From the NCBI GenBank assembly GCA_964034945.1, contig OZ035962.1:67904274-67968273 (forward strand): a DNA stretch of 64,000 bases. Direction: 5' to 3'. Of the stretch, positions 6,816 through 55,667 are shown piece after piece. How positions within the stretch are numbered: position 1 is the stretch's first letter; every line of letters begins with the position of its first letter. The position numbers and the translations under genes were made by a program. Below the pieces are notes generated by a model. That model ran no database searches and was not told the origin of the DNA. It saw only the letters and a list, made by a program, of their open reading frames with translations. Source of the stretch: Chrysopilus asiliformis. Lineage: Eukaryota; Arthropoda; Insecta; Diptera; Rhagionidae.

Positions 6816-6944
6816 AAAATTTTTTTTTTTTTTAGTGTTAGTTTTCAAGGAATTCGCAAAAATCTAATTTTTCTTTTTCTAGTGAAAATATCTCGATAAT
6901 TCGCTAACGGCAAAATTGTGGGAAATGCTTTTCTCTTTAATTGA

Positions 6945-11126: not shown

Positions 11127-12216
11127 TATGATGACAGATTTGATGGCATGCTATACAAATAAACTCGAAAACTTGAGAATTAATTGAGGTGGAACCTTGA
11201 AATCTTATATAGCGGAACTCATTTATAACGATTGATATGGTGGCATCGGTTATATTTATATACTGATGTGCATAAATGTATTAAAATTTTAAAGACTGTC
11301 TGTCTGTCTCCGTGTTTGTTTCGGAATTACGTAAAAACGGCTCAACCAATTTCGATGAAATTTTTAACACAGATAGAATTACTTGCAGAATAACAGATAG
11401 GATAATTATATTGACCATCCCCCATCTTTTCGGTACTCCCCTCCAAATCACTTTTGATATGCTTGATAGAGTGGATGCGATTTTTTGGGTTGCATAAAGG
11501 ATTACGCTAGCATTAACCCTTAAAGGCTCGGTGGTACAACATCCTGCACAGTGGTACCGAAATTATACCACTTAATAAATCAATTTCAATTTCTGCATAA
11601 ATGCTTTGAAATGATACCACATGAAATAATATCCTGAATGAAATTCTTTGAAGGCTCTGGATTGTTCAAACATTAGTGTTTCTCGATTTACAACGTTTTT
11701 AGACGGGCCAAATTACGCAACTTTGAGTCATCTAATATTTTTTCTGTCATTTTTTATGTAAATAACTTTTGTGCCGTGTGATGTTGACTATTGTCCCACA
11801 AAGAAAATGTTCGCCCACTCTCCCTTCTTGTTCGCACACTCCGTTCTTGCCAATAAGCCCCTCTCCTGCTATTTCCTGAACCATTGGAGCAGTTTTGATA
11901 CGGTTTGCGTCATTGGGTAGATTTTAAATTGCCCCCAAGGAGAATTTTCGTGCACTGAAATCTACCCTTCCCCATGCCTGTAAACTTTTCGCCTGCTATA
12001 TTCTTAACCGTTCGAACAATTTTAAAGCGAGTTTCGCCATTAACTGATACTAGAATTAAAGCCCAGCATATGACGGTTGACTGCAATCTTGGTAGGAATT
12101 CCGTAAGGTCACAGGTCGATTCGACGATTTTTCAAGTTGATTATTTTACGTGGTATGATCCACGATACTAGACTAAGTTGAGTGAAAATATTATTGATAC
12201 AAATTGATATACTCAC
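11127..12216. other. Intron with two short repeat fragments
   Basis: Contains a GTCTGTCTGTCTCC tract near 11295 followed by ACGTAAAAACGGCTCAACC, resembling the start of the Helitron-like repeats elsewhere. From 11517, after TTAA, there is a CCCTTAAAGGCTCGGTGG segment matching the piggyBac-type MITE at 21753-21957 but without a clear right end. The rest is not recognised. Confidence 0.45.
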
Positions 12217-13225
12217 TTGTTTTTTTCATAATCTAATGAATCCTTTGTGGTAATAACACCCGTTGATGGATTTACAAAGAACATGTCGCCAATGTTGCCA
12301 TCAATAATTTCATAAAATACTGATGATGTTGATCGTGCCTCCACTTGCATGACAAACATACCAATCGGAAGATTTTCGTAGATTTCAGCAGCTGGTTGAC
12401 TTTTAATAAATCGCGGCGGATCGTTGTCAGCCATTGCAATTATAATGTGTACAGGAATTTGTGAGGAAAGCGGCGGACTGCCAGAATCTGTTGCCTTAAC
12501 CTGCAGCATATATTCTGGCATTGAACTGATATCGAGCTCCTTAGCAACACTGATGATACCCATCACAGGATCGACGTCGAAAACATTTCCGATATTTCCG
12601 CTAACGATTGAATACGTGATTTTCGCATTATCGCCGACATCTCGATCAATTGCGTATAATCGAACTACTTGCGAACCAATCACAGACGTTTCAAACACTT
12701 TTCCCTGAACTATTTTGCTCGTGAATTCGGGCGCATGGTCGTTATGGTCGTGTACAGTAATTATGATTTTTGCATAGTTGCGTTTCGCGGGTGTTCCCTG
12801 ATCCTTGGCGATCACTATCAGCACATGCTCTGCAATCAGTTCACGGTCAAGTCGTTGCGTTACGATAACGTTTCCAGTGATTGAGTCGATTCGGAAGAGT
12901 GTCAAGGAAAGGGGATCTCGAACAGCATGCAAAGTATAAAACAGTTTCTTGTCTTCGTCGAGATCTGTGGCATGCAATTGTAAAATTTCAGATTCCTCTT
13001 CAATGTTTTCCGAAATGTCCACACGGTACACGGATTCAGTAAATTCCGGTCGATGATCGTTTATATCGATAACATTCACATAGAGTTGTGTCGTTACGAT
13101 GTGAACGCCATCTGTTACGCTTATAGTTAGATTGTATTCCTTTTGCGTTTCCCAATCCAATGATTTCGCAAGAAGGACATTACCATTGTCACGGCCAATA
13201 TAAAATTCATTACGGTCATCTCCAT
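12217..13225 (-). CDS. kug: Fat-like cadherin, exon F (about 3.5 EC repeats)
   Basis: Largest host exon here, 1,009 nt, acceptor TATTATTGCAG, donor AACAA|GTGAGT (phase 2). It begins DGDDRNEFYIGRDNGNVLL and contains SLDWETQKEYNLTISVTDG, a signature stretch of FAT1-3/kugelei proteins. Calcium linkers in order are DINDHRPEF, DHNDHAPEF and MADNDPPRF; calcium-site motifs include ATDLDEDK, QRLDRELIAE, YAIDRDVGDN, KATDSG and DSLDYEKNK. There are no stops or frame breaks. Encodes ectodomain of the plasma-membrane cadherin. Confidence 0.93.
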
Positions 13226-13603
13226 CTGCAATAATATATTTAATATCATATGATTATTTCTTTTAAATATCTGTAAATATGTTTTTCCCATATTTATGAA
13301 ATTTTGGTCGCAATGACAAAAATGGGTTCAGTTAAATTGTTATCAGTTCTTTAGCCTGTTGGCTTTTTACTGGTCAATATGAAATATTTGGAAATAATTT
13401 TATTGCGCAGGGGTGAATGTCAGTATGAGACAGTCGGAGAGATATTTACAATGGATCAGGTGAAAATATTTATAGTTAAAAGTGAAACATAACTTTAATT
13501 TCGTTAACCGAATTTGAATACAGAATAGATATACATATCTCCTTAGCACATACCGCGAACCTTGTCAAAATGCCAAAAGTTAGGAAGCAGTGCCTTAATC
13601 CCA

Positions 13604-14851
13604 ATTCAGACTAACGATTGCGATTACGATTGAAGCTTCTTGACCAATGAGAGCTTTGGTCTATCGTCGAGATGCTTCAATCATAATTGCAATCGCAATC
13701 GCAATCGCAATCGTAATCGTAATCGTAATCGCAATCGCAATCGCAATCGCAATCGCAATCGCAATCGCAATCGTAATCGTAATCGTAATCGTAATCGTAA
13801 TCGTAATCGTAATCGTAATCGTAATCGTAATCGTAATCGTAATCGTAATCGTAATCGTAATCGTAATCGTAATCGTAATCGTAATCGTAATCGTAATCGT
13901 AATCGTAATCGTAATCGTAATCGTAATCGTAATCGTAATCGTAATCGTAATCGTAATCGTAATCGTAATCGTAATCGTAATCGTAATCGTAATCGTAATC
14001 GTAATCGTAATCGTAATCGTAATCGTAATCGTAATCGTAATCGTAATCGTAATCGTAATCGTAATCGTAATCGTAATCGTAATCGTAATCGTAATCGTAA
14101 TCGTAATCGTAATCGTAATCGTAATCGTAATCGTAATCGTAATCGTAATCGTAATCGTAATCGTAATCGTAATCGTAATCGTAATCGTAATCGTAATCGT
14201 AATCGTAATCGTAATCGTAATCGTAATCGTAATCGTAATCGTAATCGTAATCGTAATCGTAATCGTAATCGTAATCGTAATCGTAATCGTAATCGTAATC
14301 GTAATCGTAATCGTAATCGTAATCGTAATCGTAATCGTAATCGTAATCGTAATCGTAATCGTAATCGTAATCGTAATCGTAATCGTAATCGTAATCGTAA
14401 TCGTAATCGTAATCGTAATCGTAATCGTAATCGTAATCGTAATCGTAATGGTAATGGTAATGGTAATCGTAATCGTAATCGTAATCGTAATCGTAATCGT
14501 AATCGTAATCGTAATCGTAATCGTAATCGTAATCGTAATCGTAATCGTAATCGTAATCGTAATCGTAATCGTAATCGTAATCGTAATCGTAATCGTAATC
14601 GTAATCGTAATCATAATCGTAATCGTAATCGTAATCGTAATCGTAATCGTAATCGTAATCGTAATCGTAATCGTAATCGTAATCGTAATGGTAATGATAA
14701 TGGTAATGGTAATCGTAATCTTAATCGTAATCGTAATCGTAATCGTAATCGTAATCGTAATCGTAATCGTAATCGTAATCGTAATGGTAATCTAATCGTA
14801 ATCCTAATCGTAATCGTAATCGTAATCGTAATCGCAATCGTTAGTCTGAAT
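13604..14851. repeat. TAATCG hexamer array bounded by inverted repeats
   Basis: About 1.15 kb of TAATCG units with CAATCG variants at both margins and rare GGTAAT or CATAAT variants inside. The array is enclosed by 28-bp inverted repeats: 13604-13631 (ATTCAGACTAACGATTGCG...) and 14824-14851 (...CGCAATCGTTAGTCTGAAT). The hexamer is itself part of the inverted repeat. Long ORFs here encode only Asn-Arg, Ile-Val or Ile-Thr repeats and are artefacts of the period. It lies in the 1.8 kb intron between exons E and F. The unit is not the insect telomere repeat TTAGG. Confidence 0.9.
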
Positions 14852-15008
14852 CAGGCTTTAGACTGAATTGAGCTTTAGACTGAATTGGGCTTTACACTGA
14901 CCGATATTAGTCGATTCGACTATCAAAATAAATCGAGTTAGTTGGCACGACATTCGTCATGACGGAAGTCTATCAGGAAAAAAAGGAATTAAAAGAATTT
15001 CAACTTAC

Positions 15009-15375
15009 CAATGATATCAAACCAAAGTTGATCGCTATCGTCATCTGTTGCCTGTATTAATGTTACCAAAAAGCCAGGTCGATCGCTTTCCGTTACCTCA
15101 ACTTCCTGATCAGGTGATCGAATTACAGGTGAATGTTCGGAAGTGTCTGGCGTTGGTACGACAACCACATTGACGCGTGTCGTATGCGATTTTTTCGGAG
15201 TGCCATTGTCTTCAGCTCGTATGGCCAAATCGTATTCCGCATCCGCTTCAAATGGCTTCGCCGCATAAATGACACCAGTGTCCGGATGAATACGAAACTT
15301 CGCTTTGCCTTTGCCGGACTTTATCGCATATGTAACACGTCCGTTCTCACCTGAATCGTTATCAATGGCCAACAC
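15009..15375 (-). CDS. kug: Fat-like cadherin, exon E (EC repeat plus atypical linker)
   Basis: Exon with acceptor TATCCTTCCCAG and donor ATTG|GTAAGT (phase 1). It encodes 122 codons: the calcium motif AIDNDSGENGRVTYAI, the RAEDNG strand of the same repeat, then a linker lacking a DxNDN motif (VPTPDTSEHSPVI), followed by EVEVTESDRPGFLVTLIQATDDDSDQLWFDII. The missing DxNDN suggests a linker with reduced calcium binding. Exon F supplies the rest of that repeat. The ORF appears to extend past the acceptor into Gln-rich sequence, but that part is intron. Confidence 0.9.
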
Positions 15376-16090
15376 CTGGGAAGGATAAGAAAATTTTAGT
15401 GTCTGCTGTTGTTGTTGTTGTTTTTTTGTTTGGTCTTCATTTGCCTGAACTCTTATTGCTATTGTACACATTAAAAAAAGAGATAAAAGACGGAAACTTG
15501 ACACAGCTCCAGATTATGTTTGAGTAATATAAATGACCCACGGCTCTTATCTTACAAAACACTACAAGCTTGCATGCAATGGCATTCAAAGCCCAAAAAA
15601 AGGTATGAATAATACTCAACTACCTCCTTTCAACTTAGACTTCTTATACAATAATTTATTCTTTACCCACATAACACAATCACATTCATATACCAGTACA
15701 AATACTCATTTGTCAAAGGTACGGATAAGAATAAAAAAAATCAACTTGGACATTTACTCGTATTATATGATGGAATAATATAAATCTGCGATACTAAAGA
15801 TTCCTTACGAAAAGCCAAATTATTTGTATTTCACATTAAATGTTATATACGAGTATGACACACTACTGGAGAAATGTAACTTTGAGATTATTTTGATGCT
15901 ATAATGTTCAATAATCTAAACATAATGGTGGTAAATTATGCACATTTTACTTGTCCTTTTATGTCATACAAATCCTTACACAAGAGTTATTACTTATGTT
16001 AAAAATTGAAAAAATATTGCATGACATTCTGAAAATTATGTTATTCGAAAATTTGTAGTTCCGAAATTGACACAAACGTAGAGCAATTAT
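15376..16090. other. Intron, nothing recognised
   Basis: AT-rich intron upstream of exon E. The apparent coding extension of exon E to 15504 is Gln-rich read-through of the acceptor region and is not coding. Confidence 0.45.
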
Positions 16091-19412: not shown

Positions 19413-20652
19413 AAGGGTGTTTGTTTTGCTTAGATAGAACTTATGAAAGGGTTAACTGTCAAACGAGCTGTTATACTGACAAATCATCATGAATAGACTT
19501 ACGTGTGAGCAACGTTTACTAATATTGTGGAAACTTATTTCCAAAATCAGTGCTCAATTAGGAATTGTTATAGAGCTCTTCGTCTACATTTTGGTCGTCA
19601 TAATCGTCGCACTGAACGCACTGTTCGTGAAACCATCACCAAATTTCAAACTAATTTTACACTAATAGACATTCATCCATCACCCAGAGTGCGTACAGCC
19701 CGTAGTAATGACAATATTGCTGCAGTAGCAGAGAGTGTTCGAGAAGACCGTGATCAATCAATTTGTCGCCGTTCTCAAGGTTTGGACATCTCTTATGGAA
19801 CGTTGTGGCGTATTTTGAAGCATGATCTTGGTTTAAAAGCGTATAAAATACAGCTCGTTCAAGAATTAAAGCCGGGTGACCTTGGTTTACGTTTTAATTT
19901 CGGTTTATGGGCCTTGCAACAGCTTCAAGTTGATCCTTTTTTTTTATCGAAAAATTGTGTTTAGTGACGAAGCTCATTTTTGGTTAAACGGAAGCAAAAT
20001 TTACGTATTTGAGCCGATGAACAGCCAGAAGCAATCCAAGAGCTACCAATGCAACCCGAAAAATGCACTGTTTGGTGCGGTTTATGAGCAAGCGGCATCA
20101 TTGGACCGTATTTCTTTAAAAATGCGGAAGGAGTGCTCAATGGAGCTCGCTACAGAGCAATGATCAATGCATTTTTGTTGCCAAAAATTCAAGATATTGG
20201 TGTAGCTGACTTGTGGTTTCAACAGGATGGCGCTACATGTCATACAGCTAACGATACAGTCGCTTTATTCAGGGAAACGTTCGATGAAAACATCATCTCA
20301 AGAAATGGTTCTGTTAATTGGCCTCCAAGGTCGTGCGATTTAACACCTCTCGATTATTTCCTGTGGGGCTACGTGAAGTCACTGGTTTATGCTGATAAAC
20401 CAGCAACAATTGATGCCTTTGAGGCCAACAATGTTCGTGTTATTTGTGACATACGGCCAGCAGTGCTGGAAAAAGTGGCCCAAAATTGGACGTCCAGAAT
20501 GCGCTTCGTCAAGAACAGACCGCCCGAAATCATTTTCAAATGTTAATGCCATGTATTGATCTTTCGAATAAATAAAAAAATTTGATTAAAATTTAATTTT
20601 TTGTGTTACTTTTTAAAATTTGAAGTTCTATCGGGCTTAAAAAAACACCCTT
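19413..20652 (+). mobile_element. rosa-like (DD41D) Tc1/mariner element, full length but decayed
   Basis: Imperfect inverted repeats AAGGGTGTTTGTTTTGCTTA and the complement of AAGGGTGTTTTTTTAAGC, both continuing into GATAGAACTT, flanked by TA (19411-19412, 20653-20654). The 1,240-bp length matches a full Tc1/mariner relative. The transposase is broken by several lesions. The sequence is distinct from the element at 10210-11126, so two subfamilies have invaded this gene. Confidence 0.85.
19489..20546 (+). pseudogene. rosa-like transposase pseudogene
   Basis: Begins MNRLTCEQRLLIL at 19489, shifts frame near 19525, continues through the DNA-binding region and LDISYGTLWRILKHDLGL, shifts again near 19940 just before SDEAHFWLNG (first catalytic Asp), and shifts once more before ADEQPEAIQEL. 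A TGA interrupts the block before GIIGPYFFKN, and the last frame runs from about 20133 with FQQDGATCHTA and SCDLTPLDYFLWG to EIIFKC. Spacing of the last two aspartates is again 41. Not functional as written. Confidence 0.85.
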
Positions 20653-26341: not shown

Positions 26342-26629
26342 TTATTTCAATAAATGAAATGAAATATACTTACTTCCTCGTCTCAAAATTTGTTTAATTT
26401 TTTTGTTCAAAAGCTTCGATTTTAACTCATTTTCAAAAGCACTGCTATCAAAGTGCAGTGAGCATAACACTAAACCTGCGTTATCTTTTTTAATTGAAAT
26501 TCCGCAAAATCGTAACCATTTTACCCTTAACTCTTTATTTTTAGGAAACTGGTGGAAAGTTATTTTTGCTGGACATTTATTTCCCCTAACGCTTTGACAT
26601 TTTGGCAAAGCACACTTTCTACCCACCAT
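26342..26629 (-). pseudogene. P-like transposase THAP exon
   Basis: ATG at 26629 opens MVGRKCALPKCQ. The zinc-binding C2CH signature of a THAP domain is complete: C6-x4-C11-x44-C-x2-H in LVLCSLHF, with the conserved HQFPKN and KWLRFC positions. A strong splice donor GAGGAA|GTAAGTAT follows at about 26362, so the real exon probably ends there and the last codons are intron. In P elements this domain binds the TIR-proximal DNA. No downstream transposase exons are recognisable, so it is a remnant. It could instead be read as a host THAP gene, but its place inside the P-like TIRs argues against that. Confidence 0.75.
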
Positions 26630-31474: not shown

Positions 31475-31963
31475 GCGGCTCAGTTGAGCAGCTCACATTT
31501 TTTCTGAGCGTAAAAAAACTCCGCTCAGTAGCTGAGCAAATGTCAAATGAAGAATTACATAACCTCAATTCATGTGTAAAAATGACGACGGAGATAAATG
31601 GTGTTACGGGAAGCCTCATGGAAGTTCTTGCTGAGCAAACGGGAATGGAAATAGTCGGCGTCGCGGAAAATGTTGGTGAAAGAGTTCGGGAGTGTACTTC
31701 GGTATAGTCACCTCAAAATAATCCCGGTTTCTTTCAGGCTTCGAACTTCGAATTGAGGTTACTTCAAAATGAGTATTACATTCGTCAACGAACATTGCGA
31801 TGGGCTCCAAATTTAACATATCTGACGCGCAAATACCGAATATTGTGGAAATAATTATATCTCGGTCCATCTCCCACTATAACCCCGAATATTTTGACAG
31901 TTTTATGTGCGCGGCTTAGTATTCAGTAAACACTGAGCGGCTCAGCTGAGCGGGAATGCACCC
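31475..31963 (-). mobile_element. PIF/Harbinger-derived element, copy 1 (left-truncated)
   Basis: Strong similarity over its length to 36476-37129: GAGCAGCTCACATTTTTTCT, CTCAGTAGCTGAGCAAATGT, GGAAGCCTCATGGAAGTTC. The right end reads GCTGAGCGGGAATGCACCC. The left TIR is missing and starts directly after a GTCY tract. It carries the short minus-strand ORF at 31616-31870. Confidence 0.6.
31616..31870 (-). pseudogene. Harbinger-like short ORF, copy 1
   Basis: 84 codons from ATG 31870: MDRDIIISTIFGICASD, then an acidic middle and NRDYFEVTIPKYTPELFHQHF ending in FPFPFAQQELP. The YFEVT..KYTPELF..HF block resembles the region just before the DDE domain of PIF/Harbinger transposases. No catalytic domain follows. 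The same ORF is open in copy 2 (36739-37002) with numerous conservative differences. Confidence 0.5.
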
Positions 31964-36475: not shown

Positions 36476-37129
36476 GGGCGCATCCAACTACCAGAGCGGC
36501 TCAGCATCGCTCTAGAGCGAAAAAGGTGCTCAGTTACTGAACGCAATCGCTACAGAGCGGCTCAACTGAGCAGCTCACATTTTTTCTGAGCGTAAAAGAA
36601 CTCCGCTCAGTAGCTGAGCAAATGTCAAATGAAGAATTACAGAACCTCAATTCATGTCTAAAAACGACGACGGAAATACATAAATGGTGTTATTTATAAT
36701 ATTTATAGTTATTTATGTTATTTATAATACGGGAAGCCTCATGGAAGTTCTTGCTGAGCAAACGGGAATGGAAATAGTCGGCGTTGCGGAAAATGTTGGC
36801 GAAAGAGTTCGGGAGTGTACTTCGGCATAGTCACCTCAAAATAATCCCGGTTTCTTTCGGGTGCCGCATTCCGGATTGGGGCGACTTCAACTGAAGTATT
36901 ACACTCTTCAACCAAAAGTGAAATAGCTTCCAGATTTATCGTATCAGAAGCACAAATTTCTAACATTACGGAGATAATTACATCGCGGTCCATCTTGAAC
37001 AATAATTTCTTTCAATGACAGCTCATATATAAATGGGCGGTGCATTCAGGACACAAAATGCTGCTCAGCTGAGCATTTTTTTGACAGCTGAGCTTCGCTC
37101 CAGAGCCGCTCTGGTAGTTGGATGCGCCC
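36476..37129 (-). mobile_element. PIF/Harbinger-derived element, copy 2
   Basis: Perfect inverted ends GGGCGCATCCAACTACCAGA and its complement ending GGATGCGCCC. ATT (or CATTG if the ends are counted shorter) is repeated on both flanks. Internal GAGCGGCTCAGCATCGC and GCTGAGC motifs are reiterated. It holds the minus-strand ORF 36739-37002. Copy 1 is at 31475-31963. Confidence 0.7.
36739..37002 (-). pseudogene. Harbinger-like short ORF, copy 2
   Basis: 87 codons, MFKMDRDVIISVMLEICASD ... NRDYFEVTMPKYTPELFRQHF ... FPFPFAQQELP. Aligns end to end with the ORF at 31616-31870, with substitutions but no gap apart from the first three residues. No DDE catalytic domain. It may be the N-terminal portion of a PIF/Harbinger transposase or accessory protein retained in a deletion derivative. 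Confidence 0.5.
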
Positions 37130-42838: not shown

Positions 42839-43615
42839 TGTGGTGTGTAGATGGTGGAGGTAATGGAGAACACAAACAAAACACTTTCAATCCTTCTTTT
42901 TTATATCTTTATTTTAACACATGACTTCCTTTAATCTTCTTTTATAACTCTGCTTTTAAACTAGACTTTAAAAACTTTACTTTGAAAACTTTACTTCTTA
43001 AACTAGCTCTGCCAAAACTTAACTCTAGACTTTCTCGATTCAGACTGTTTGATTATTACTTGACTTATCTTACTCGACTGACATTACTCGACTTATATTA
43101 CTCCACTCTTCATCAGAACTTATTAAAAACTAACTCCCTTAAGTTTACAATTACTTACTTTTATAACTAGTCTATGCGGAAGTTGAATTCTTCCGCTTAC
43201 ATAAATGTTACGATATTCTTAAAAAACATATTCATTTATTATGAAAACATTTCAAGGTCTTTCCTAGCCTAATGGTTTTATTTCCGATCAGCACTTCATT
43301 TCATTTCATGCCCGTGAATTCTACCTTCTGCTGAGTCGACAAAACTTAGGTGCATTGGATTGCCTCACTGAATTGCATGAATGACTTAATTGTGATAATG
43401 ATACAACAATTGTTTATGTTATCGTATTTCAGTTCTTGTGTTTAAACATCTGTCGTTCCGTGTTTGGACATTTGACCGATTTTTTAAATAGCTCATAATC
43501 AAATTAGGAAATCCAATTACATCTGTTTTCAAATAGTTGACTAAATTATATCTAAGAAATGAAGCTTAATTGTTTTTATCAATGACCATTATGAATGATC
43601 ATTAGAATCCTAACA
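42839..43615 (-). repeat. 3' LTR
   Basis: 777 bp; on the minus strand it begins TGTTAGGATTC and ends CACACCACA, the TG...CA rule. AATAAA lies at 42908-42913 (minus). The 62-codon ORF across it is only LTR sequence. Confidence 0.95.
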
Positions 43616-43900: not shown

Positions 43901-45835
43901 TTATTTGTTGTGTATCTTTACGATTTTCGGTGTTGTTAACCTAATTGGTATTCGATTAAAGTGACCGGGTACCGAATCTAAATTATCTATTGTTATAGGG
44001 ACACTATTTGTGGCTTCTTCATAATTTGCCTCGGTAGATATTGAAGTGTTTATTGGCATTTCGTTAATGATTGGGCGTGAAATTTCTAGTTTAGGTCGAT
44101 TTAACTTTCTATTGTACAAAACCTTGTTTTCGTGCCTTGGTTGCCTGGTTTTGTATTTTATACAGGTTATGCCTATGATCAAACATATTAGAATAAAAAT
44201 TAGTATACCTATTAACCCATATTGAATTATTTGGGTAATTTCGTGTTTTTCATGCCTCTTTTTATTTTCCAGGTCAGAAATATCTTTTTCAATTTCTAGT
44301 ATAGATTTACTTTCTTTTGCAAATATATCTTGATACTTAAAGGAATCTACTAGATTAAATGTTGAGTCGTTGCTTATTGTATAGTTTAAGTTTTGTAACT
44401 GGGTAAAGTTAATTTTGGGGATAAAATTTTGAAATTGACGTGGTTGAGATGCAGATAGTTTTGTTTCGAAATCATTCTCAAAAGGGATTAACAAATTTCC
44501 CAATGTAAAACTACATGATTTACTTAGTTTGATGATACCCTGCCCCATTAGTTTTATTTGTTTTGTATTTTCGTTACATGTTGCCTGGAATAATCTTTCA
44601 TCTTCGAAAAAGAAAAACCAATTGTTTTTCGATATGAGTTTAACTAGCAACTCTTGTTTACCGAATACTATTTTGTGGTTACATGGACTTTGTGAACCTG
44701 TGTCATTTGTTTCTATTATCTTATCGTTTAAAAAACATGTCTGAGGTTCGGATTGTAAATATTTTGGTTGATTGTGGGAACATAAATATATTCTTTCCCC
44801 TTGTGACCGTTTAATTTGTTCGCATTTTCTATAAAACTCGTCAGATTCTAATTTGATCACCCTATCCGAATTTGAACTGTTCAAAATATAAGAAATTTTA
44901 GTATCGATAATAGAGTATTTGTTTTCTTCCAATTTTTTGGGAATAATGTAAACTTTACTGACGTCAAAAAAGTTCTTTTCAGGTAGGGGAATTTTAATTT
45001 TTATTAGTATTGTGCCGTTTACATGAAAAGATTCTATTGTCATCATCTGTGTTAGCAATTGATAATTTAATATAGATGGTTCTTTGTTGACATAATTCTG
45101 AATCCTGGTACTTATTGTCATTAAATCTGTAGGTTTTAGAATGAGTGGGTGTAATTTGTTCATATTTATTGCATTAATGATAGTAAAGAGATCGGACTGG
45201 GTTTGAAATACAGCATTAAGCCTCATTAGAATGTATGTCGTTATCTCATTTATTCTGACTTGTAGATGAATATCCTGTGATTCTCGCATTAAGTACTCCC
45301 TATTCTTTTTTACAAAGTCAACAAAGGTGTTTATTTTTTCTACCATGCGTGACTGTTTCTTCGATAATTCTTGTATCGGTTTCGAAAGTTGTTCAAAATT
45401 TGATTTTATTAACGTTATTTGTTTTTTCATTATATCTACTTGCTCGTTATCGCGTTCTTCCAAAGTATCTAATCGATTATAAATTTCTTGTGCCTCATAG
45501 GAATCCATCGTTCCAAAAACCTTATTTAGGACCCATCCTCCTAGATTTATCAGCCCTCTTTTCCGTATTCGTTTGGGTTCCTGGTTTCCGAAAAAAAATT
45601 CTAATTCCTTGCTTCGTACCTGTATTTCCTGGATTAAAAATTCGATGTCTTGTTCCCAATGGTGACATTCCTCATCATTAAATACACTTTCCCTAGTGGA
45701 ACACAAGGTAGCCATTGCCTTCTCACAAGTCTTCACAAATTCCAATGTGCCTGACCAGTTTGGGTTACGTAGTTTTGTTACCACCGTCCAGGATTGCTCG
45801 TATACGTAGGTTCTTCCTAGTGGTTCTAAAAACAT
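43901..45835 (-). CDS. env: Envelope fusion protein (env)
   Basis: 644 codons from ATG 45835. Visible features: a furin-type site RIRKR at residues 89-93 followed by GLINLGGWVLNKVFG, the fusion-peptide pattern of errantivirus and baculovirus F-type proteins; a heptad-like stretch (about 125-190); one membrane segment at about 538-557; and an 87-residue cytoplasmic tail. The frame stays open 44 codons upstream to 45967 and includes the hydrophobic SFLGLIWIVAG, a likely signal peptide, so the ATG at 45835 is probably not the true start. In gypsy-class elements env is made from a spliced RNA; AG acceptors at 45931-45932 and 45913-45914 would join this frame to an upstream exon. It is intact as read. 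Confidence 0.88.
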   Translation of the reverse strand: MFLEPLGRTYVYEQSWTVVTKLRNPNWSGTLEFVKTCEKAMATLCSTRESVFNDEECHHWEQDIEFLIQEIQVRSKELEFFFGNQEPKRIRKRGLINLGGWVLNKVFGTMDSYEAQEIYNRLDTLEERDNEQVDIMKKQITLIKSNFEQLSKPIQELSKKQSRMVEKINTFVDFVKKNREYLMRESQDIHLQVRINEITTYILMRLNAVFQTQSDLFTIINAINMNKLHPLILKPTDLMTISTRIQNYVNKEPSILNYQLLTQMMTIESFHVNGTILIKIKIPLPEKNFFDVSKVYIIPKKLEENKYSIIDTKISYILNSSNSDRVIKLESDEFYRKCEQIKRSQGERIYLCSHNQPKYLQSEPQTCFLNDKIIETNDTGSQSPCNHKIVFGKQELLVKLISKNNWFFFFEDERLFQATCNENTKQIKLMGQGIIKLSKSCSFTLGNLLIPFENDFETKLSASQPRQFQNFIPKINFTQLQNLNYTISNDSTFNLVDSFKYQDIFAKESKSILEIEKDISDLENKKRHEKHEITQIIQYGLIGILIFILICLIIGITCIKYKTRQPRHENKVLYNRKLNRPKLEISRPIINEMPINTSISTEANYEEATNSVPITIDNLDSVPGHFNRIPIRLTTPKIVKIHNK

Positions 45836-46309
45836 GTCTGACGGTTCTAAATATTCAATTTCGTAGGCCTTTTCTGCCCTTGTAACGTCCCCCGCTACTA
45901 TCCAAATTAATCCTAAAAACGAAAATTCATCTATAAAATTTGTTGTTTTTCCCTTTTTTCTTTTGTTTTATTTAAACCGTTAACATGAACATTTGGGTTA
46001 ATGAAAAAAAATTTTAATAATTGTGGTAATGTCTCCATTTTAATGTGTTTGCATTATTTTTTGTTGTTGACCCATTTATTTTTGCAATGTGATATTGCTG
46101 AAATTAATTTCTTAACGTTTGATTTTGAAACGTTTAATGTAAGGGTTTTGTATTTTATGCTGATTGCTAAAAATTTCTTGTTCCCTGGTTACCCATTCTA
46201 TTAATGCTCGATTTCAGTTTCACGTTAAACTTCGAACACTTAACATCGTTTTCCAACCGTTGGTTTTTGTTCCTGTTTTTTTTTTTTCTTATAAAAATTT
46301 TTATTAAAA

Positions 46310-46705
46310 ATGTTGCGTGCCGCCACTTATCTGCAAAACAATCTTGTCGTGATCGTGCATCGCGGTCACATTTCTTGTTTGGAGCTAGGAGACAACATCT
46401 TACTTTGTAGGGATTGTCATTTGGATGAGCTGACCGAGCTTTTGAAACCAGTACTTGAGTTTTATTGGCGGCCGCCTCCCGGGGTCGAATGGCCCTCCCT
46501 GTATGATGAAATTGAGATGGTAGCAGGCGACGTCAAATTTCCATTCGTCGTGATAGAAAAACATCTCGGGAGTGCGCATTGTTTCAACTTAAACCGCGAG
46601 GAGTCGGAGTCTTTAGACGAGATATGTGACGCCGCCGAAGCTGACAAAGCTGATGTTTCCGGCCTAGGTTATGATTTCCGGCTAGACTCGATACATTGGT
46701 CTTAA
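46310..46705 (+). CDS. Opposite-strand ORF inside the LTR element, unknown function
   Basis: 131 codons, ATG at 46310 in a good AAAAATG context, TAA at 46703. Composition is clearly different from the AT-rich element around it (GC-rich codons such as GTC, GCC, GAC). The protein starts MLRAATYLQNNLVVIVHRGH, has a CxxC-type pair (LLCRDCHLDELTELL), a Pro-rich turn (YWRPPPGVEW), and an acidic C-terminal part (REESESLDEICDAAEADKAD) ending SIHWS. No membrane segment. AATAAA at 46834-46839 lies 130 nt downstream. TATAAAA at 46290 is too close to the ATG to be its obvious promoter. I do not recognise the family. It could be a captured host gene, an accessory (for example antisilencing) gene, or chance; composition and poly(A) signal argue against chance. 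Confidence 0.55.
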   Translation: MLRAATYLQNNLVVIVHRGHISCLELGDNILLCRDCHLDELTELLKPVLEFYWRPPPGVEWPSLYDEIEMVAGDVKFPFVVIEKHLGSAHCFNLNREESESLDEICDAAEADKADVSGLGYDFRLDSIHWS

Positions 46706-46833
46706 TTTGCCGAACCAGTGGACTTCAACAATTGCGGCCTCATACGATTTTATTATTATGATTATTATATATTTTTTTTTTTTTGTAAAAATTTATGTAA
46801 TTATTTTGTATCCGTCAAAATTCCTCTTTCCAA

Positions 46834-46839
46834 AATAAA
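46834..46839 (+). terminator. Poly(A) signal AATAAA downstream of the opposite-strand ORF
   Basis: CAAAATAAAGTATAT, 130 nt past the stop of the ORF at 46310-46705, on the same strand, consistent with an independent Pol II transcript. Such hexamers are common in AT-rich DNA, so moderate support. Confidence 0.4.
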
Positions 46840-47725
46840 GTATATAATTTTATAGCATAAGTGATGTGGTTTTTTTTTTTTCTCTTTGCTTAATTTCCTT
46901 TTAAAATCCCAAATGGCATTTTAAAAATCCCAAATAGTATTTTAAACAGCAATTATGATGATTACCCCCCTATTTCGAGTATTATTTGATAATGGACTTT
47001 TCCTCTGATTGCATGTCATGATTTTAGTTGCCATTAACATTTTCGACAATATTGGATCTGAAACTTAAGCAGATTTTACTGGGCTCTCCTTTTTCATAAA
47101 ACACATGCATTGAAAATATGCCTTTCGATGCCTCCGTAGCGGGTCGAAAGTTTCGTTTTCGCGACGTAAACCGAAAATATGAACGGGTGAGGTTAACTAT
47201 ACGAGCGCATTATGATTAACAATAGTTGCGCGTTGCCGATTTCCCCTTTTTTTTTTTTTTTTTTTTTTTTTTTGTTAAGTTGATTTTCATTTCAGTGGGA
47301 AGAACAACTGAAACAGCTGATCAGCACTTTTGCATTTCCCATTGCATTTTGCGTATGATTTAGTTGAGTATTATCGATTTCCATTTTTTTTTTTTTTTTT
47401 TTTTTTTTTGTTATGTTGCTTTTTGTTTCAAAGGAAATAAATTTAAAAATTAAAATCTGTTTTGACTGTTTTGAACTGTTTTGAAATCTGTTTTGAATTT
47501 AAAAATTAAAATCTGTTTTGACCGACATTTGTTAGTAATAAAACGAATTTATAGAATATAGGTGTTTTGTTTCTTTTTAAAAATTCACTTCTGCTGACAT
47601 CAGGGGGCTTCGCCTCTGGACCCCGCCAAACCCCTTTTTTTCGTTAATTTTGGTTGTTGTATACCCTTTTCTCTTTTATTCATTAACTAATTATTCATTA
47701 TATAATTCTCGGTTATTACAGACTA

Positions 47726-50700
47726 TTATTCATTAAACAATTTTAAACGGTTGTTATGGATACGTTTTTTCCGTTTGTTAACCATAATGATTGTGTTAAT
47801 TTCGTTCGGAATTTCTACAACGGTAAATGGGCCTAACCATACTTGTGAAAGTTTTCCTTTTTTGGCCGCATCTTTTACTAAAACTTTGTCCCCAACGTGG
47901 AATTTTACGGGGTAAACCTTTCTATCGTAGTAGGATTTTGTCTTTGCTTTACTGTTTTGTAAATTTTCCCTGACGATTTTATACGCGGATTGTAATTTCG
48001 ATTTTAAACCTAAAACATAATCGTCATAGTTGTATAATGGTTGCGGTTCATGTTTAAGATCAGTTGGAATCGATGGGTTGTAACCATATAATACTTCCAT
48101 GGGGGTGAATCCCGTGCTACGATGAACAGTTGTATTATGGACAAACATGGCCTGTCGTAAATGATCGTTCCATGTTCTAACATTTTTATCGACGAATGTT
48201 CGAAGGTATTCTACTAAAGATTTATGAGATCTTTCTAATGCGCCATTGGATTGTGGGTGGTAGGCTGTTGTTTGGACCTTTTTTACTTTTAACAATTTAC
48301 ACAGTCTTTTAAAAATATCGCTCATGAAATTGGAGCCCTGGTCTGTTACAACTAAAGAAGGAATACCATATCTACTAATTATTTGATCAAAAAAAATTTT
48401 TGCAACTGTGGAGGCTTCTAAATCATTAATAGCGTAGCAATCTGTAAAACGAGTTAAATCGTCTTCGAACGTCAAAATATATTTTTCTCCGTTAACAGTT
48501 TCTTCCAAAGGACCTACTATATCTAAATAAACTTTCTCAAATGGTCTCGTAGCGGTATTTGGTATTACCATTGGCATCATATGCATGCGACCGCTTTTAT
48601 TTTTCTGACAGGACGGACAGTTTTTAATATATTTTGCAATATCTTTTCCCATATTTTTCCATTTATATTGTTTTCTTATATTCCGAAAAGTCTTAAAAAT
48701 CCCTTGATGACCACCTAATGGATTGTTGTGAAACGCTCTCAATATCTCTTTGATATCTTCAGAATTCGTTATTTCTGTTACTTCATTTTTTTCTTCCGAT
48801 ACAATTTTTAAAGGATCCTGCGCTATATTAATTGTATCTTCGTCATTGTTCCTAGTTAAATTTTCTTCCTGTTCTATGGCTTTTCTTTGTGCTCTAGTTA
48901 TTGCTAGAATGGTTTTTTGATTCTGAGAATTTTCTTCTTGATGTACTGTATTTTGATTCTGAGAATTTTCTTCTTGATGCACTGTACTATCTTGTGGTAT
49001 CCTACTTAAAGCGTCGGCAACCTGATTCAATTTTCCTGCCTTATATTCAATTGTGTAGTCATATTCCGAAAGTTTATGCCGCATTTTTATCAACCTGGAT
49101 GTTGTATCTTTTACTCTACATTCCCCAATTAAAGGTTTATGATCTGTTAGAATTTTGAATGATCTTCCGTAAAGATAACACCTGAAATTTTTTGTTGCCC
49201 AAACTATAGCTAATAGTTCCTTTTCGATAGTGGAATATCTACGCTCGGCTGGATTAAGAGATCTACTAGCATATGCTATTGGGTGTTCAACCCCATTTTC
49301 ACCTTGAGATAAGACTGCACCTAAAGCTTCGTTACTGGCATCGGTCGTTAACGTAAAAGGTTTCAAGAAATCTGGATATCGCAATAACGGTGGATTAATC
49401 AATTTTTCTTTCAATTCTGCGAATGCTTTTTGACATTCCTGAGTCCATTTGAATTTTGTGTCCTTACGAAGCAATTTATTTATGGGTTCTGCGATTTTCG
49501 AAAAATTTGGGATAAATTTTCGATAGTAGTTAGCCAACCCTAAGAATGATTGGACTTGTCTAACCGTTTTTGGAACAGGGAAGGTTTGTACGCAGGCCGT
49601 TTTTGCAGGATCAGGCATCGCGCCTTTTTCGGAGCAAACGTGTCCTAAATATACTACTTCTTTTTTCAAAAAATGACATTTCTCTAATTGTAATTTTAAA
49701 TTGAATTTTGATAATTGATTAAAAACTTCACGTAATTTATTATTGTGGTCGGCTAAATTTTTGCCGTGAATGACGATGTCATCCAAATATACAAAACATT
49801 TCCATCCTTGTAAGCCTGTCAACACTTGATTCATCATCTGCTGAAACGTCGCAGGTGCTCCTTTTAACCCGAAAGGCATCCTTTTAAATTGGTAATGTCC
49901 AAAAATCGTACTAAAAGCAGTTTTCTCCCGATCTTCGTCTTCAACGAGGACCTGATGGTATCCACTAGCCAAATCTAGAGTGGTGAAATAACGACAATGT
50001 CCCAACTGGTCAAGAATATCTTCAATTCTCGGCAGTGGAAATGCATTTCCTATTGTTATATCGTTTAATTTTCGATAGTCTACAACCACTCTCCACCGTT
50101 TCTTACCACCTGGGCCTGCTTTCTTAGGTACTACCAGTAATGGAGAATTCCAAGGGCTTTTACTTGGCTCTATTATGTCGTTCTCTAACATATCTTCCAC
50201 CTGTTCTAAAATAACTTGACGTTGAGTCTCTGGTAACCGATACATTTTCTGGTTAACGGGCGCTTGACTACCCTTTACTGGTATTCTATGGGTTTGCGCT
50301 GTAGTGTATGTCAACTTATCTCCCGTGAGATGAAATAATTCATTATATTCTGTACAAATTTCGATTATTGCTCTTTTCTCTTCCTCGTTATACTCTTCGT
50401 TTAAATTTAAACCTTTTATAATTTCCGCTATTCTCCAAGTTTCTTTCGTATATCCTGTAGATTTAGTTTTATAATAATTATTGTTAAAGTTTTCATCTAT
50501 ATTTCCTCTTGTATTTATTTTCTCTTTAGCCTCGTTCTTTATTTCTTTGTCTATTTCCTTATCTTTTCTAAAAAATATATTTCTTTTTGTCCCATAATTA
50601 TTCAATATTCTTATATTTTCTTCTTTTTTACGCGTTACATCATTATATGTATCTTTATCATTTTTTACTATTTCTTTTCTCATAATACGCCCATTATTAT

Positions 50701-52165
50701 TCACCTGTATTTCATCGTTAACCGTATTTCCATTTATTTTTTCCCTAACGCCATTTATTTCACTATGTTTCTGTAATCTCGTTAAAATCTCTTTACTATT
50801 CTCTTTATCAAAATCTTCACATATATCCTCATCTAATTCACAAATAAAAAACTCTGATGCCGGTTCCATTTTCGGCCTATAATCTTCCAATATAATATCT
50901 TCATTATTCATATTTAAAACACTAACTTTAGCTACTTTATCTTTTCCCTTAATCAAACAGTTTCCCATATAGACCCCTGGTTTTATTTGTTCTGCATAAC
51001 AAATTTTCTCTTGATCATCGTTTACTTTAACTAGTACAATCTTTTCGCTTCGGGCGGGAATTATAGTTTTAAAATTTAACTCGTTGGAAAATAGCGATTT
51101 GCTTCTGAAATCGGTATTCTTTTCTCTCTGAGTCTCTAGAATACTTCTTTCTTTTGGCACAGAAAGTGTGTCTGACTTACTTATCGAAACGTCTTCAGGG
51201 TTAAATTCACCGAAAAAAGATTCCAAATAAAAATCATCGGTTTTACCCCAGATATTAACTTCTCTCGGAGTCTCATTAATATCCTTAAAAGACTTATTCA
51301 GATAGTTAGATGGTGGTTTAGTATTTGATTTTTTGGCTAATTGTGAATGTGAATTGTCACCATGAACACAAGTATTAATTTCTTGTGAGTGCAATTCTCC
51401 ATGTTCAACACAATTTCTACCCGTGGAATCGATCCCCTCAGGGTGATAGGACTCCGCTTTGCACAAGTGCTCCAAACAGGATGGGCTAGTCTCCTCAGAG
51501 TCATTAGTACCTCCTGTAAAGCTAATTGTCCCCTCAGGGCAAACTTGTGACTGGTCGCTGTCCCCCACGCAATTGTCAAATACTTCATCTTGTTCAATCT
51601 GACATTGACACTTTTCTGTTGATTCTGTCGCATATTTTCCTGGATACATTGGTAATTTTATCCCTTCCCGTGGAAAAACGATCTGTTTATTAGGACCTTC
51701 TATGTTTATGTGCTTCGTTAAAATATCGCTTCCTATTAAACCATCCCCTGGCAAATGTACATCTTCGTCTATTACTTGAAAATCGCAACTTATTTTGTTA
51801 CCTAATAATATTTCCCCATGACAGGTACCTAATGTATAAGTTTTTCCACATACTCCTCTAATTTCCAATTTCATATGCTCGTCTATCTGAACTGTGTTTT
51901 TTAAACTTGATTTTTTTATTAAACTTACATCAGCCCCCGTATCTATTAATAAACTTGCCTTATTATTTCGTACTATATCTAAAGGAAATTGGACCATTGG
52001 TGTTCTAATGGATTCTACAATACTGCTCTGATTTCGACTTTGATTAAAATTTTGCTCTGATTCTTTAAATTCCAAATGGGGTTGGGGCTGATTACACCCT
52101 AAAATTTTCTCGCTTAATTTTATTGCCTGACTGGGGTGCTTGCAGCCGGCCGTTGTCCGTTTCCC
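47726..52165 (-). CDS. pol: Pol polyprotein (protease, reverse transcriptase, RNase H, integrase)
   Basis: Open from the gag overlap to 47726; counted from the in-frame TTG at 52075 it is 1,449 codons. In that numbering: aspartic protease DTGA at 45-48; reverse transcriptase with YLDD at 763-766 and the fingers around 600-700; RNase H (TTDAS, SRSLNPAERRYS); zinc-binding H2C2 of integrase (HHC..CPSC region); catalytic D1185, D1245 and E1281 (35 residues apart, DD35E). No stop or frameshift. Translation is expected by -1 slippage at GGGAAAC (52159-52165), since there is no good ATG and the pol frame is open back through gag's end. The stretch between protease and RT (about residues 150-560) is unusually long, charged and low-complexity. 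Confidence 0.93.
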   Translation of the reverse strand, partial: GKRTTAGCKHPSQAIKLSEKILGCNQPQPHLEFKESEQNFNQSRNQSSIVESIRTPMVQFPLDIVRNNKASLLIDTGADVSLIKKSSLKNTVQIDEHMKLEIRGVCGKTYTLGTCHGEILLGNKISCDFQVIDEDVHLPGDGLIGSDILTKHINIEGPNKQIVFPREGIKLPMYPGKYATESTEKCQCQIEQDEVFDNCVGDSDQSQVCPEGTISFTGGTNDSEETSPSCLEHLCKAESYHPEGIDSTGRNCVEHGELHSQEINTCVHGDNSHSQLAKKSNTKPPSNYLNKSFKDINETPREVNIWGKTDDFYLESFFGEFNPEDVSISKSDTLSVPKERSILETQREKNTDFRSKSLFSNELNFKTIIPARSEKIVLVKVNDDQEKICYAEQIKPGVYMGNCLIKGKDKVAKVSVLNMNNEDIILEDYRPKMEPASEFFICELDEDICEDFDKENSKEILTRLQKHSEINGVREKINGNTVNDEIQVNNNGRIMRKEIVKNDKDTYNDVTRKKEENIRILNNYGTKRNIFFRKDKEIDKEIKNEAKEKINTRGNIDENFNNNYYKTKSTGYTKETWRIAEIIKGLNLNEEYNEEEKRAIIEICTEYNELFHLTGDKLTYTTAQTHRIPVKGSQAPVNQKMYRLPETQRQVILEQVEDMLENDIIEPSKSPWNSPLLVVPKKAGPGGKKRWRVVVDYRKLNDITIGNAFPLPRIEDILDQLGHCRYFTTLDLASGYHQVLVEDEDREKTAFSTIFGHYQFKRMPFGLKGAPATFQQMMNQVLTGLQGWKCFVYLDDIVIHGKNLADHNNKLREVFNQLSKFNLKLQLEKCHFLKKEVVYLGHVCSEKGAMPDPAKTACVQTFPVPKTVRQVQSFLGLANYYRKFIPNFSKIAEPINKLLRKDTKFKWTQECQKAFAELKEKLINPPLLRYPDFLKPFTLTTDASNEALGAVLSQGENGVEHPIAYASRSLNPAERRYSTIEKELLAIVWATKNFRCYLYGRSFKILTDHKPLIGECRVKDTTSRLIKMRHKLSEYDYTIEYKAGKLNQVADALSRIPQDSTVHQEENSQNQNTVHQEENSQNQKTILAITRAQRKAIEQEENLTRNNDEDTINIAQDPLKIVSEEKNEVTEITNSEDIKEILRAFHNNPLGGHQGIFKTFRNIRKQYKWKNMGKDIAKYIKNCPSCQKNKSGRMHMMPMVIPNTATRPFEKVYLDIVGPLEETVNGEKYILTFEDDLTRFTDCYAINDLEASTVAKIFFDQIISRYGIPSLVVTDQGSNFMSDIFKRLCKLLKVKKVQTTAYHPQSNGALERSHKSLVEYLRTFVDKNVRTWNDHLRQAMFVHNTTVHRSTGFTPMEVLYGYNPSIPTDLKHEPQPLYNYDDYVLGLKSKLQSAYKIVRENLQNSKAKTKSYYDRKVYPVKFHVGDKVLVKDAAKKGKLSQVWLGPFTVVEIPNEINTIIMVNKRKKRIHNNRLKLFNE

Positions 52166-54015
52166 GAAACATTTAGATTTTCCCAGCGTTCCTTTAATCT
52201 ACATTCATTTGTAACATGATGTGGACTCAAACAAAAATTACATGCATTTGATCTAGTTAATCCCACATTTGAATTTCTCATCTTTTGTCTACAATCTGAT
52301 TCTAAATGACCAATTCTTTGGCAATAGTTACATCTAACTTGGGGTGGTGGTTCCCTTGACCTACATTCACGTTGCGTGTGGTTTGTTCCCCCGCATTTGT
52401 AACAAATTAGTGGATTCTGATTAAAATTCCTATCTTGGTTACTTCTATTCAGGCCATTTGGTTCCCTATTAAAATTACGTTGACTATTACTGTTAAAATT
52501 TCTATTTTGATTATTATAATCCCTGTTAAAATTGCGTTGATTATTGTTATAATTTACGTTTTGGCTATTAAAACTGCGTTGATTATTACTGTTATAATTT
52601 CTGTTTAAATTACTCGGGTCTCTATTAAACTGTTGCCTACTAAAATATCCTGTGTTAGAATTTACACCATTGTTAACGTATTGATTCATGTTTGAATTTA
52701 GTTGATTATTGCTAGGTATTACGTGTTGGTTTTCGAATTTTTCTATTGAACTTACTTTTGCTGTTAGTTCGACAATATTTCCTTCCTGCGTATGAGCATA
52801 ATGCCTTAATGCTGAATTAAGCAAGCCATGTTTGAACGTGTTTAACGCTATCTTGTCGTATTCCTGGTCAAACTCTTTCCGTGCACCGGGGTATAATTGA
52901 CTGATGACCTCCTTACATAAACTAAGTTGCTTCATTACTCTGTGTCCGAAATCGAACACACTTTCATTATACTTTTGTTTACAATTACGCAGTTCATCAC
53001 AAAGTTCTACCAGGGATTTCTTTGGGAAATATTGTTTGGAAAGTATTTCTTCCAAATCCTCGAAACGTTCAATTTTATTATTGATTGCCAATTGAAGTGC
53101 TTCACCTGACAGACTAAAACTGGGTAGAAGCTTTACAAAAATAATTCGTTTTTCAGCTTCTAAAGTATTGTGATATGCCTTTGTTGTCGTCAAGTAATGA
53201 TGTAAAACAGAATCTCGGTTCTGTGCATATTCGCCCGAAAATTTCGGCAGACTTCTCGCAATAAATTCCGCAATTTTTTGAGCGGTATCCGCTTCATAAT
53301 TTTGAATTGTTTCATCGCTTTTTCCAGTCATGATCAGATTTTTAGTTGTCCTAACTTGCTGAAGTTCAACTTTTAAAAGTTCGTTTTGCGAATTTAATTT
53401 TATAATTTCTTGTTCTAAACCCGTGATTTTTTTGGAATACGTTATACTATTACTCTCTTGATTATTTCCAATACTACTAATTTTCCCTTCAAAAATACTT
53501 GACCCTAATATACTTTCTATGTGTTCTAGCTGTGAACTTGGTGGCAATTTTGATTTTAAAAGCTTCAATTCTAAACCTACTTCTATAATTTGAGAATTCA
53601 ATCTTGAATTTATTTCTTCTGCCTCTTCTATTAGTCCCTTGCTATTTTTCAACTCCCTATTCAAAAAACCGTTATTTTCCTTTAAATTATTTATTTCTTC
53701 ATGTAACAGTACTTGTGTTTTATTTATTGAATCGATGTATACATCAAAAAGACTTTCAGTTAACCTACCTACTGATACTTCGTGTGGATTTTCTGTAATT
53801 TGTTTTTTCAATTCATCGTACTCTTGAGATGTAACTTTTGACTTAAGTTCTGACAGTAATAGTTCTTGAAAATACCCTAATTCTTCCGTAATTTTCTTAG
53901 CCTCGTTCTTGTAAAATTCTTGCCTTTCTCTGAACACTTCAATATCTATTTGCAGTTTTTTAATTTCTTCAACTTCTTCTTTTGTAAATATGTTTTCTCT
54001 GCGTCTTCCCGGCAT
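52120..54015 (-). CDS. gag: Gag polyprotein
   Basis: 631 codons from ATG 54015. The N-terminal part (to about 230) is Glu/Lys-rich with heptad character, likely coiled coil; the middle (about 245-430) is the capsid-like region (FARSLPKFSGEY..., LELC-type helices); then an Asn/Arg-rich repeat segment (NRNYNSN, QRNFNRD, QRNFNRE); and three CCHC zinc knuckles at residues 538-551, 562-575 and 592-605, each C-x2-C-x4-H-x4-C. Ends PVRQ then TAA. Longer than usual for the errantivirus group. Forms the particle and binds genomic RNA; shares the frameshift site with pol. Confidence 0.92.
   Translation of the reverse strand: MPGRRRENIFTKEEVEEIKKLQIDIEVFRERQEFYKNEAKKITEELGYFQELLLSELKSKVTSQEYDELKKQITENPHEVSVGRLTESLFDVYIDSINKTQVLLHEEINNLKENNGFLNRELKNSKGLIEEAEEINSRLNSQIIEVGLELKLLKSKLPPSSQLEHIESILGSSIFEGKISSIGNNQESNSITYSKKITGLEQEIIKLNSQNELLKVELQQVRTTKNLIMTGKSDETIQNYEADTAQKIAEFIARSLPKFSGEYAQNRDSVLHHYLTTTKAYHNTLEAEKRIIFVKLLPSFSLSGEALQLAINNKIERFEDLEEILSKQYFPKKSLVELCDELRNCKQKYNESVFDFGHRVMKQLSLCKEVISQLYPGARKEFDQEYDKIALNTFKHGLLNSALRHYAHTQEGNIVELTAKVSSIEKFENQHVIPSNNQLNSNMNQYVNNGVNSNTGYFSRQQFNRDPSNLNRNYNSNNQRSFNSQNVNYNNNQRNFNRDYNNQNRNFNSNSQRNFNREPNGLNRSNQDRNFNQNPLICYKCGGTNHTQRECRSREPPPQVRCNYCQRIGHLESDCRQKMRNSNVGLTRSNACNFCLSPHHVTNECRLKERWENLNVSGNGQRPAASTPVRQ
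52159..52165 (-). promoter_or_regulatory. Gag-pol -1 ribosomal frameshift heptamer GGGAAAC
   Basis: The heptamer G GGA AAC lies in gag codon register (GGA at 52164-52162) 37 nt before gag's TAA (52120-52122), fitting X XXY YYZ exactly. The -1 frame from it is continuous with pol (52159 minus 52075 is a multiple of three). GC-rich CGGCCGGCTGC follows six nt downstream and could form the stimulatory structure. Confidence 0.75.
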
Positions 54016-54777: not shown

Positions 54778-54791
54778 GTCCGGCTGCGCCA
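54778..54791 (-). promoter_or_regulatory. Primer-binding site, tRNA-Ser type
   Basis: On the minus strand TGGCGCAGCCGGAC begins four bases (TAAT) after the LTR edge. TGGCGCAG.CG is complementary to the 3' end of insect tRNA-Ser (TGGCGCAGTCG expected) with one difference. tRNA-Ser primers are used by the 17.6/297 branch of errantiviruses. Confidence 0.7.
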
Positions 54792-54795
54792 ATTA

Positions 54796-54890
54796 TGTGG
54801 TGTGTAGATGGTGGAGGTAATGGAGAACACAAACAAAACACTTTCAATCCTTCTTTTTTATATCTTTATTTTAACACATGACTTAAATTA
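54796..54890 (-). repeat. 95-bp tandem duplication of the LTR edge
   Basis: 54796-54884 repeats 54891-54979 (TGTGGTGTGTAGATGG to CACATGACTT), followed by AAATTA before the true LTR. In the element's sense this adds a second 3' LTR edge with its AATAAA between the 5' LTR and the primer site. The left LTR lacks it. Confidence 0.9.
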
Positions 54891-55667
54891 TGTGGTGTGT
54901 AGATGGTGGAGGTAATGGAGAACACAAACAAAACACTTTCAATCCTTCTTTTTTATATCTTTATTTTAACACATGACTTCCTTTAATCTTCTTTTATAAC
55001 TCTGCTTTTAAACTAGACTTTAAAAACTTTACTTTGAAAACTTTACTTCTTAAACTAGCTCTGCCAAAACTTAACTCTAGACTTTCTCGATTCAGACTGT
55101 TTGATTATTACTTGACTTATCTTACTCGACTGACATTACTCGACTTATATTACTCCACTCTTCATCAGAACTTATTAAAAACTAACTCCCTTAAGTTTAC
55201 AATTACTTACTTTTATAACTAGTCTATGCGGAAGTTGAATTCTTCCGCTTACATAAATGTTACGATATTCTTAAAAAACATATTCATTTATTATGAAAAC
55301 ATTTCAAGGTCTTTCCTAGCCTAATGGTTTTATTTCCGATCAGCACTTCATTTCATTTCATGCCCGTGAATTCTACCTTCTGCTGAGTCGACAAAACTTA
55401 GGTGCATTGGATTGCCTCACTGAATTGCATGAATGACTTAATTGTGATAATGATACAACAATTGTTTATGTTATCGTATTTCAGTTCTTGTGTTTAAACA
55501 TCTGTCGTTCCGTGTTTGGACATTTGACCGATTTTTTAAATAGCTCATAATCAAATTAGGAAATCCAATTACATCTGTTTTCAAATAGTTGACTAAATTA
55601 TATCTAAGAAATGAAGCTTAATTGTTTTTATCAATGACCATTATGAATGATCATTAGAATCCTAACA
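54891..55667 (-). repeat. 5' LTR
   Basis: 777 bp, the same length as the 3' LTR and no difference seen by eye. Begins TGTTAGGATTC on the minus strand. TGCG follows at 55668-55671 as target copy. Confidence 0.95.

Follow-up and report, generated by a model that had tools for sequence, protein, structure and literature searches.

A candidate antisense gene between pol and env of an errantivirus-like provirus in Chrysopilus asiliformis

The provirus and the reading frame on its opposite strand

The window analysed here (the whole 64 kb stretch of Chrysopilus asiliformis DNA) carries on its minus strand what is apparently a recent and complete errantivirus-like provirus. On the opposite strand to gag, pol and env, and placed in the gap between the latter two, is a further open reading frame, referred to below as the antisense ORF. 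The features of the element are collected in Table 1. The LTR termini, whose ends were set by reading the sequence, are TGTTAG..ACCACA on the sense strand, and a 4-bp target duplication (TGCG on the + strand) flanks the provirus on either side. The pol frame remains open further upstream, to 52199, and thus overlaps gag; the Pfam matches within it are, in order, protease, RT, RNase H and integrase. No ATG occurs in the upstream extension of the env frame, which is open to about 45967 and encodes what by eye is a signal-peptide-like stretch. Given that this open frame has no ATG ahead of the signal-peptide-like stretch, env is probably expressed by splicing.

Table 1 Features of the provirus and of its pol-env spacer, in window coordinates.
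Feature	Position	Strand	Details
3' LTR	42839..43615	-	identical to 5' LTR; the exact match runs one base past the LTR end and is 778 bp long
env, F-type	43901..45967	-	644 codons counted from first ATG; Baculo_F E 3.5e-22 (Pfam)
TCAGTT, candidate arthropod initiator	46214..46219	+	consensus match only
ATG-free leader	46217..46309	+	93 nt
Left flanking tract	46276..46300		T12, C, TTATAAAAATTT; A-run in sense RNA
Antisense ORF	46310..46705	+	131 codons, ATG 46310 to TAA 46705; 131 aa, 14.9 kDa, pI 4.6
Right flanking tract	46772..46794		direct repeat of left tract
AATAAA, candidate poly(A) site	46834..46839	+	then GTGATGTGG (46861-46869), T12 to 46881; consensus match only
Two repeat copies, rest of spacer	47223..47430		82% over 72 nt; A-run of 26-27 nt (sense) in each
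pol	47726..51997	-	PR-RT-RH-IN, 1423 codons, open
gag	52120..54015	-	631 codons, open; zinc knuckles (Pfam)
Extra tandem copy of LTR inner end	54791..54885	-	95 bp; adjoins PBS-like TGGCGCAGCCGG
5' LTR	54891..55667	-	777 bp, TG to CA

TG..CA LTRs with a short target duplication, the PR-RT-RH-IN order and a baculovirus-F-related env are all found here, and are the features by which errantiviruses are recognised. The assignment is by LTRs, pol domain order and env type, and the element is accordingly called errantivirus-like. The tandem duplication that precedes the primer-binding site occurs at the 5' LTR copy only.

Between the stop codon of pol (47726) and the open frame of env (about 45967) there is a gap of about 1.76 kb, or of 1.89 kb if the first env ATG is taken as its far end. 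So wide a gap is unusual for the gypsy layout. The antisense ORF has the start context TTAAAAATG; its frame is closed by a stop 18 nt before the ATG, at 46292, and the remaining five frames of the same region all contain stops. Its GC content is 0.480, against 0.266 (45960-46309) and 0.239 (46706-46860) in the flanks; this GC-rich block is sharply bounded and coincides with the ORF, its right end lying near 46749 in 50-nt bins. By codon position the GC content is 0.59/0.34/0.51, and the third-position value of 0.51 compares with 0.27-0.31 in gag, pol and env, and with 0.35 in a cadherin-containing host ORF. The predicted product is acidic, with a mean hydropathy of -0.06. An initial annotation had described these features, namely a 131-codon ORF opposite to gag, pol and env, with GC above its surroundings and AATAAA about 130 nt downstream, within a pol-env spacer of 1.75 kb in an errantivirus-like element. 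All of them are present, the AATAAA being 128 nt past the stop codon, and the LTRs, the pol domain order and the Baculo_F match agree with the description of the host element.

The provirus is upstream of two cadherin-domain ORFs (12213-15471, - strand; the best PDB match of one is CELSR1) and in the same orientation, and is perhaps intronic. Elsewhere in the window there are a THAP-domain ORF (26342-26629, - strand), two similar 84-codon ORFs with no Pfam match (31616-31870 and 36739-36993, - strand), probably copies of one repeat, and two ORFs that by eye are mariner-like transposases (10368-11021 and 20160-20546), with no Pfam match at E 0.01.

Coding signature and searches for relatives

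The length of the antisense ORF is by itself poor evidence for coding. When the 1765-nt spacer was simulated 1000 times with a first-order Markov model, 17 of the simulated sequences had an ORF of at least 131 codons in any of the six frames, as did 67 of 1000 simulated 996-nt sequences with the composition of the ORF; it should be added that the ORF was selected from 64 kb, which bears on these chance estimates. The codon-position pattern is more telling than the length, and is coding-like. Its chi2 is 24.4. Values at least as high occurred in 3 of 5000 mononucleotide shuffles, in 10 of 5000 sequences simulated by a Markov model without stops, and in none of 63 overlapping blocks of the spacer, for which the maximum is 9.0. 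The same level is also attained by 4.5% of 420 blocks from window positions 1-42000, a control that includes some coding stretches and repeats and from which blocks starting in the repeat at 13600-14900 were excluded.

The bias takes the form of an excess of G at first and A at second codon positions, with a value of 49, a statistic chosen post hoc, after the counts had been seen. None of the 5000 stop-free simulations has an excess this large. Overlapping control blocks, drawn mostly from non-coding DNA of the window, supply 2 such frames in 2004, with a maximum of 52; gag, pol and env read antisense supply none in 537 frames, with a maximum of 45. In the five other frames of the antisense ORF the excess is -31, -19, 12, -16 and 3; the direction of the codon bias matches only the annotated frame. 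The amino-acid composition score, based on average protein frequencies, is 0.7, above that of 4939 of 5000 simulations (61 reach it); the 18 blocks of gag, pol and env that were scored gave 4.8-26.3, all of them higher. The RNY fraction hardly separates the frames, being 0.29 in the frame of the ORF and 0.26 and 0.23 elsewhere.

The protein search and the structure prediction proposed in the initial annotation were both run, and yielded no relative and a poor single-sequence AlphaFold model (mean pLDDT 40.9). Among 5.8 billion proteins, the search at natural length returned 12 candidates, none with E <= 1, and the search among longer proteins returned 163, none with E <= 10. These searches require shared 5-residue words, and a fast-evolving relative would escape them. 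With Pfam, DUF4250 (E 0.26) was the sole match up to E 0.5, and there was neither a bZIP nor a TRP28 (PF04195) domain; no relative was found in NCBIfam, PHROGs, PDB or phage records, and none of 8 pattern matches in IMG/VR is a relative. The initial annotation had suggested that the product perhaps acts against host silencing; no known suppressor of RNA silencing was matched by sequence in Pfam or PDB, and the structure model is too poor for folds to be compared, so that this possibility is neither strengthened nor weakened. Within the window, tblastn found no relative of the antisense ORF, six other hits all having E of at least 3.

Insect retroelements are represented in the protein database, because relatives of Pol were found there: among the 120 best of 7875, the closest (P0001) has 85% identity over RT-RH, and the named insect sources include Cataglyphis, Cryptotermes, Photinus and Cydia. 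In IMG/VR there was no pattern match for env, and none of 41 pattern matches from the Pol-alignment search is a relative. In prokaryote MAG contigs, 7 of 55 pattern matches are Pol relatives, too distant at a best-segment identity of 30-35%.

Origin, expression and competing explanations

The two tracts flanking the antisense ORF are 91% identical over 23 nt (46278-46300 and 46772-46794, E 0.008), each being an A-run in the sense strand with a AAATTTTTA-like sequence. The left tract matches 6585-6614 and 6788-6819, both outside the element, equally well, and the bracketing of the ORF by repeats may therefore be chance. A-runs of at least 10 are concentrated in the spacer, which holds five of the seven in the element, the other two being in its leader. 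One A-run of the 72-nt repeat pair is followed on the sense strand by GGGGAAAT, and resembles a polypurine tract. The spacer also has a second, smaller GC-richer patch, within which there is a 33-codon ORF on the + strand (47118-47219) with a basic product.

The signals around the antisense ORF for promoter, splicing and polyadenylation are consensus matches within AT-rich DNA, and no more than suggestive. TCAGTT fits the arthropod initiator motif, and TTTCAG at the same site is an alternative candidate 3' splice acceptor, likewise by consensus. From the 3' LTR up to the antisense ORF the + strand contains 39 ATGs, none of them in 46217-46309; if the RNA began further upstream, an out-of-frame 68-codon ORF (46204-46410) would overlap the start of the antisense ORF. 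Downstream, the AATAAA is followed by a GT/T-rich stretch, and we regard it as no more than suggestive given that the + strand of the spacer contains three AATAAA.

We consider it probable that the antisense ORF is a real antisense gene, probably captured, whether or not it serves the element. The best single reading, to which we give about an even chance, is that it is a genuine gene with an accessory function for the provirus. The gene would have been captured, perhaps through template switching at A-rich tracts like those that flank it. It would then be transcribed from a short unit of its own, starting near 46216 or spliced into 46217 and ending near 46858; such a unit is suggested because antisense RNA running unspliced from the 3' LTR would have 39 ATGs ahead of the ORF. 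By analogy with Grande gene23 and HBZ, the small acidic protein would serve the element in an accessory or regulatory role. In favour are the open gag, pol and env, the identical LTRs and the intact antisense frame; against are the want of a homologue and the 4.5% of the 420 window blocks that reach its chi2. Since this copy of the provirus is so young, intactness says little about selection. Of the earlier proposal of a captured or accessory gene, capture is plausible, in that the composition of the ORF is foreign to gag, pol and env, whereas for the accessory role the evidence is position and intactness only. With the 4.5% background and the doubt about the flanking repeats taken into account, the capture route is slightly weaker, but our estimates are unchanged.

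Two alternatives, each rather unlikely, have to be weighed against a gene with a function. The ORF may be a passenger, in other words a captured gene fragment, from the host or another virus, that is open because it arrived recently, useless to the element and perhaps private to one subfamily or copy. The identical LTRs leave little time for decay, the composition is foreign, and no protein relative is found in the database that holds Pol relatives at up to 85%, all of which would be expected of a passenger; however, with its own ATG and stop, ATG-free leader and AATAAA, the ORF would resemble a whole small gene more than a random cut. Alternatively, and no more probably, it may be a chance ORF inside a GC-rich non-coding insert in the spacer. 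This is consistent with the frequency of equally long ORFs in roughly 1 kb of sequence of the same composition, with the proportion of window blocks that match its codon-position chi2, with the lack of a homologue in the proteins and profiles searched, and with a protein-likeness below that of every gag, pol and env block tested. It fits poorly with the rarity of the codon-position bias and of the amino-acid make-up in the simulations, and with a directional bias confined to the annotated frame.

Two further explanations are very improbable. The antisense ORF could be the gene of a second mobile element lying inside the provirus, between pol and env. This would account for a 14-nt inverted repeat (13/14) close to both ends of the spacer, but 2 of 60 simulated end pairs equal this repeat, by eye no target duplication adjoins its arms, and no transposase or other Pfam domain is present. 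The block might instead have its function in the sense genome, at the RNA or DNA level, as an export, splicing or translation element, the ORF being a by-product. It is directly upstream of env, a probably spliced gene whose frame has no ATG before the signal-peptide-like stretch, as such an element might be; however, folding of 46300-46760 is no better than that of shuffles on either strand (z 0.80 sense, -0.21 antisense), and Rfam at gathering scores gives no match across the element.

Comparison with known systems

Errantiviruses are models both of the transition from retrotransposon to retrovirus and of piRNA control. If the antisense ORF is indeed a protein gene, errantiviruses would join plant elements and deltaretroviruses as a further, apparently independent case of an antisense protein gene. 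It would then have to be asked how an element can make antisense RNA in a host that silences it through antisense small RNAs.

The plant Ty3/gypsy elements (Grande gene23, RIRE2, Retand; the aORF-3R position) likewise have an antisense ORF downstream of pol. Plant Ty3/gypsy elements with antisense ORFs are not known to carry an F-type env. The aORF-3R position, antisense and between pol and the 3' LTR, is also that of the ORF described here, which is in addition upstream of env. For Grande, a promoter is reported upstream of gene23 (PMC7264820). Retand elements are described, in the portion of that paper available, as having a long post-pol region, with tandem repeats in about half, and a TRP28 domain in 57 of 104 antisense ORFs (PMC11963269); the ORF here has no TRP28.

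Among insect LTR retrotransposons, micropia of Drosophila hydei shares antisense transcription, which is putative in our case, although its antisense RNA is described in the available text as lacking protein coding capacity (PMC7264820). The small accessory proteins of the MDG1 group, sORF1 and sORF2, are, as far as the text available goes, encoded upstream of gag on the sense strand of elements without env (PMC11952523), and the antisense ORF matches none of these properties; sORF2 is moreover a transmembrane protein, whereas the product here is acidic and of near-neutral mean hydropathy. Errantiviruses themselves are characterised in PMC12992720 by gag, pol and an F-type env, a plan that the present element shares, the candidate antisense gene and the long gap being the differences. 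An antisense gene in an errantivirus was found neither among the papers listed in one open-access library, lacking most subscription journals, for extra and antisense ORFs, metazoan errantiviruses and silencing suppressors, nor in the available portions of PMC11952523, PMC7264820, PMC13172572, PMC10186651, PMC12992720, PMC2774666, PMC5408687 and PMC11963269.

The initial annotation was right that antisense genes exist in retroelements: the analogues that it named, HTLV HBZ and plant Grande, are both documented (PMC10186651 and PMC7264820). HTLV HBZ, with APH, is likewise an antisense gene within a gag-pol-env provirus, and in the text at hand HBZ is a bZIP protein expressed from the 3' LTR (PMC10186651). 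The product here has no bZIP match and its gene is between pol and env, and the 39 upstream ATGs disfavour an unspliced transcript from the 3' LTR like that of HBZ. Our fullest reading, which we put forward as a possibility rather less than even, is of an errantivirus with an antisense accessory gene in a transcription unit of its own, whose orphan protein would regulate the element or counter host control, as an independently arisen counterpart of HBZ and Grande gene23.
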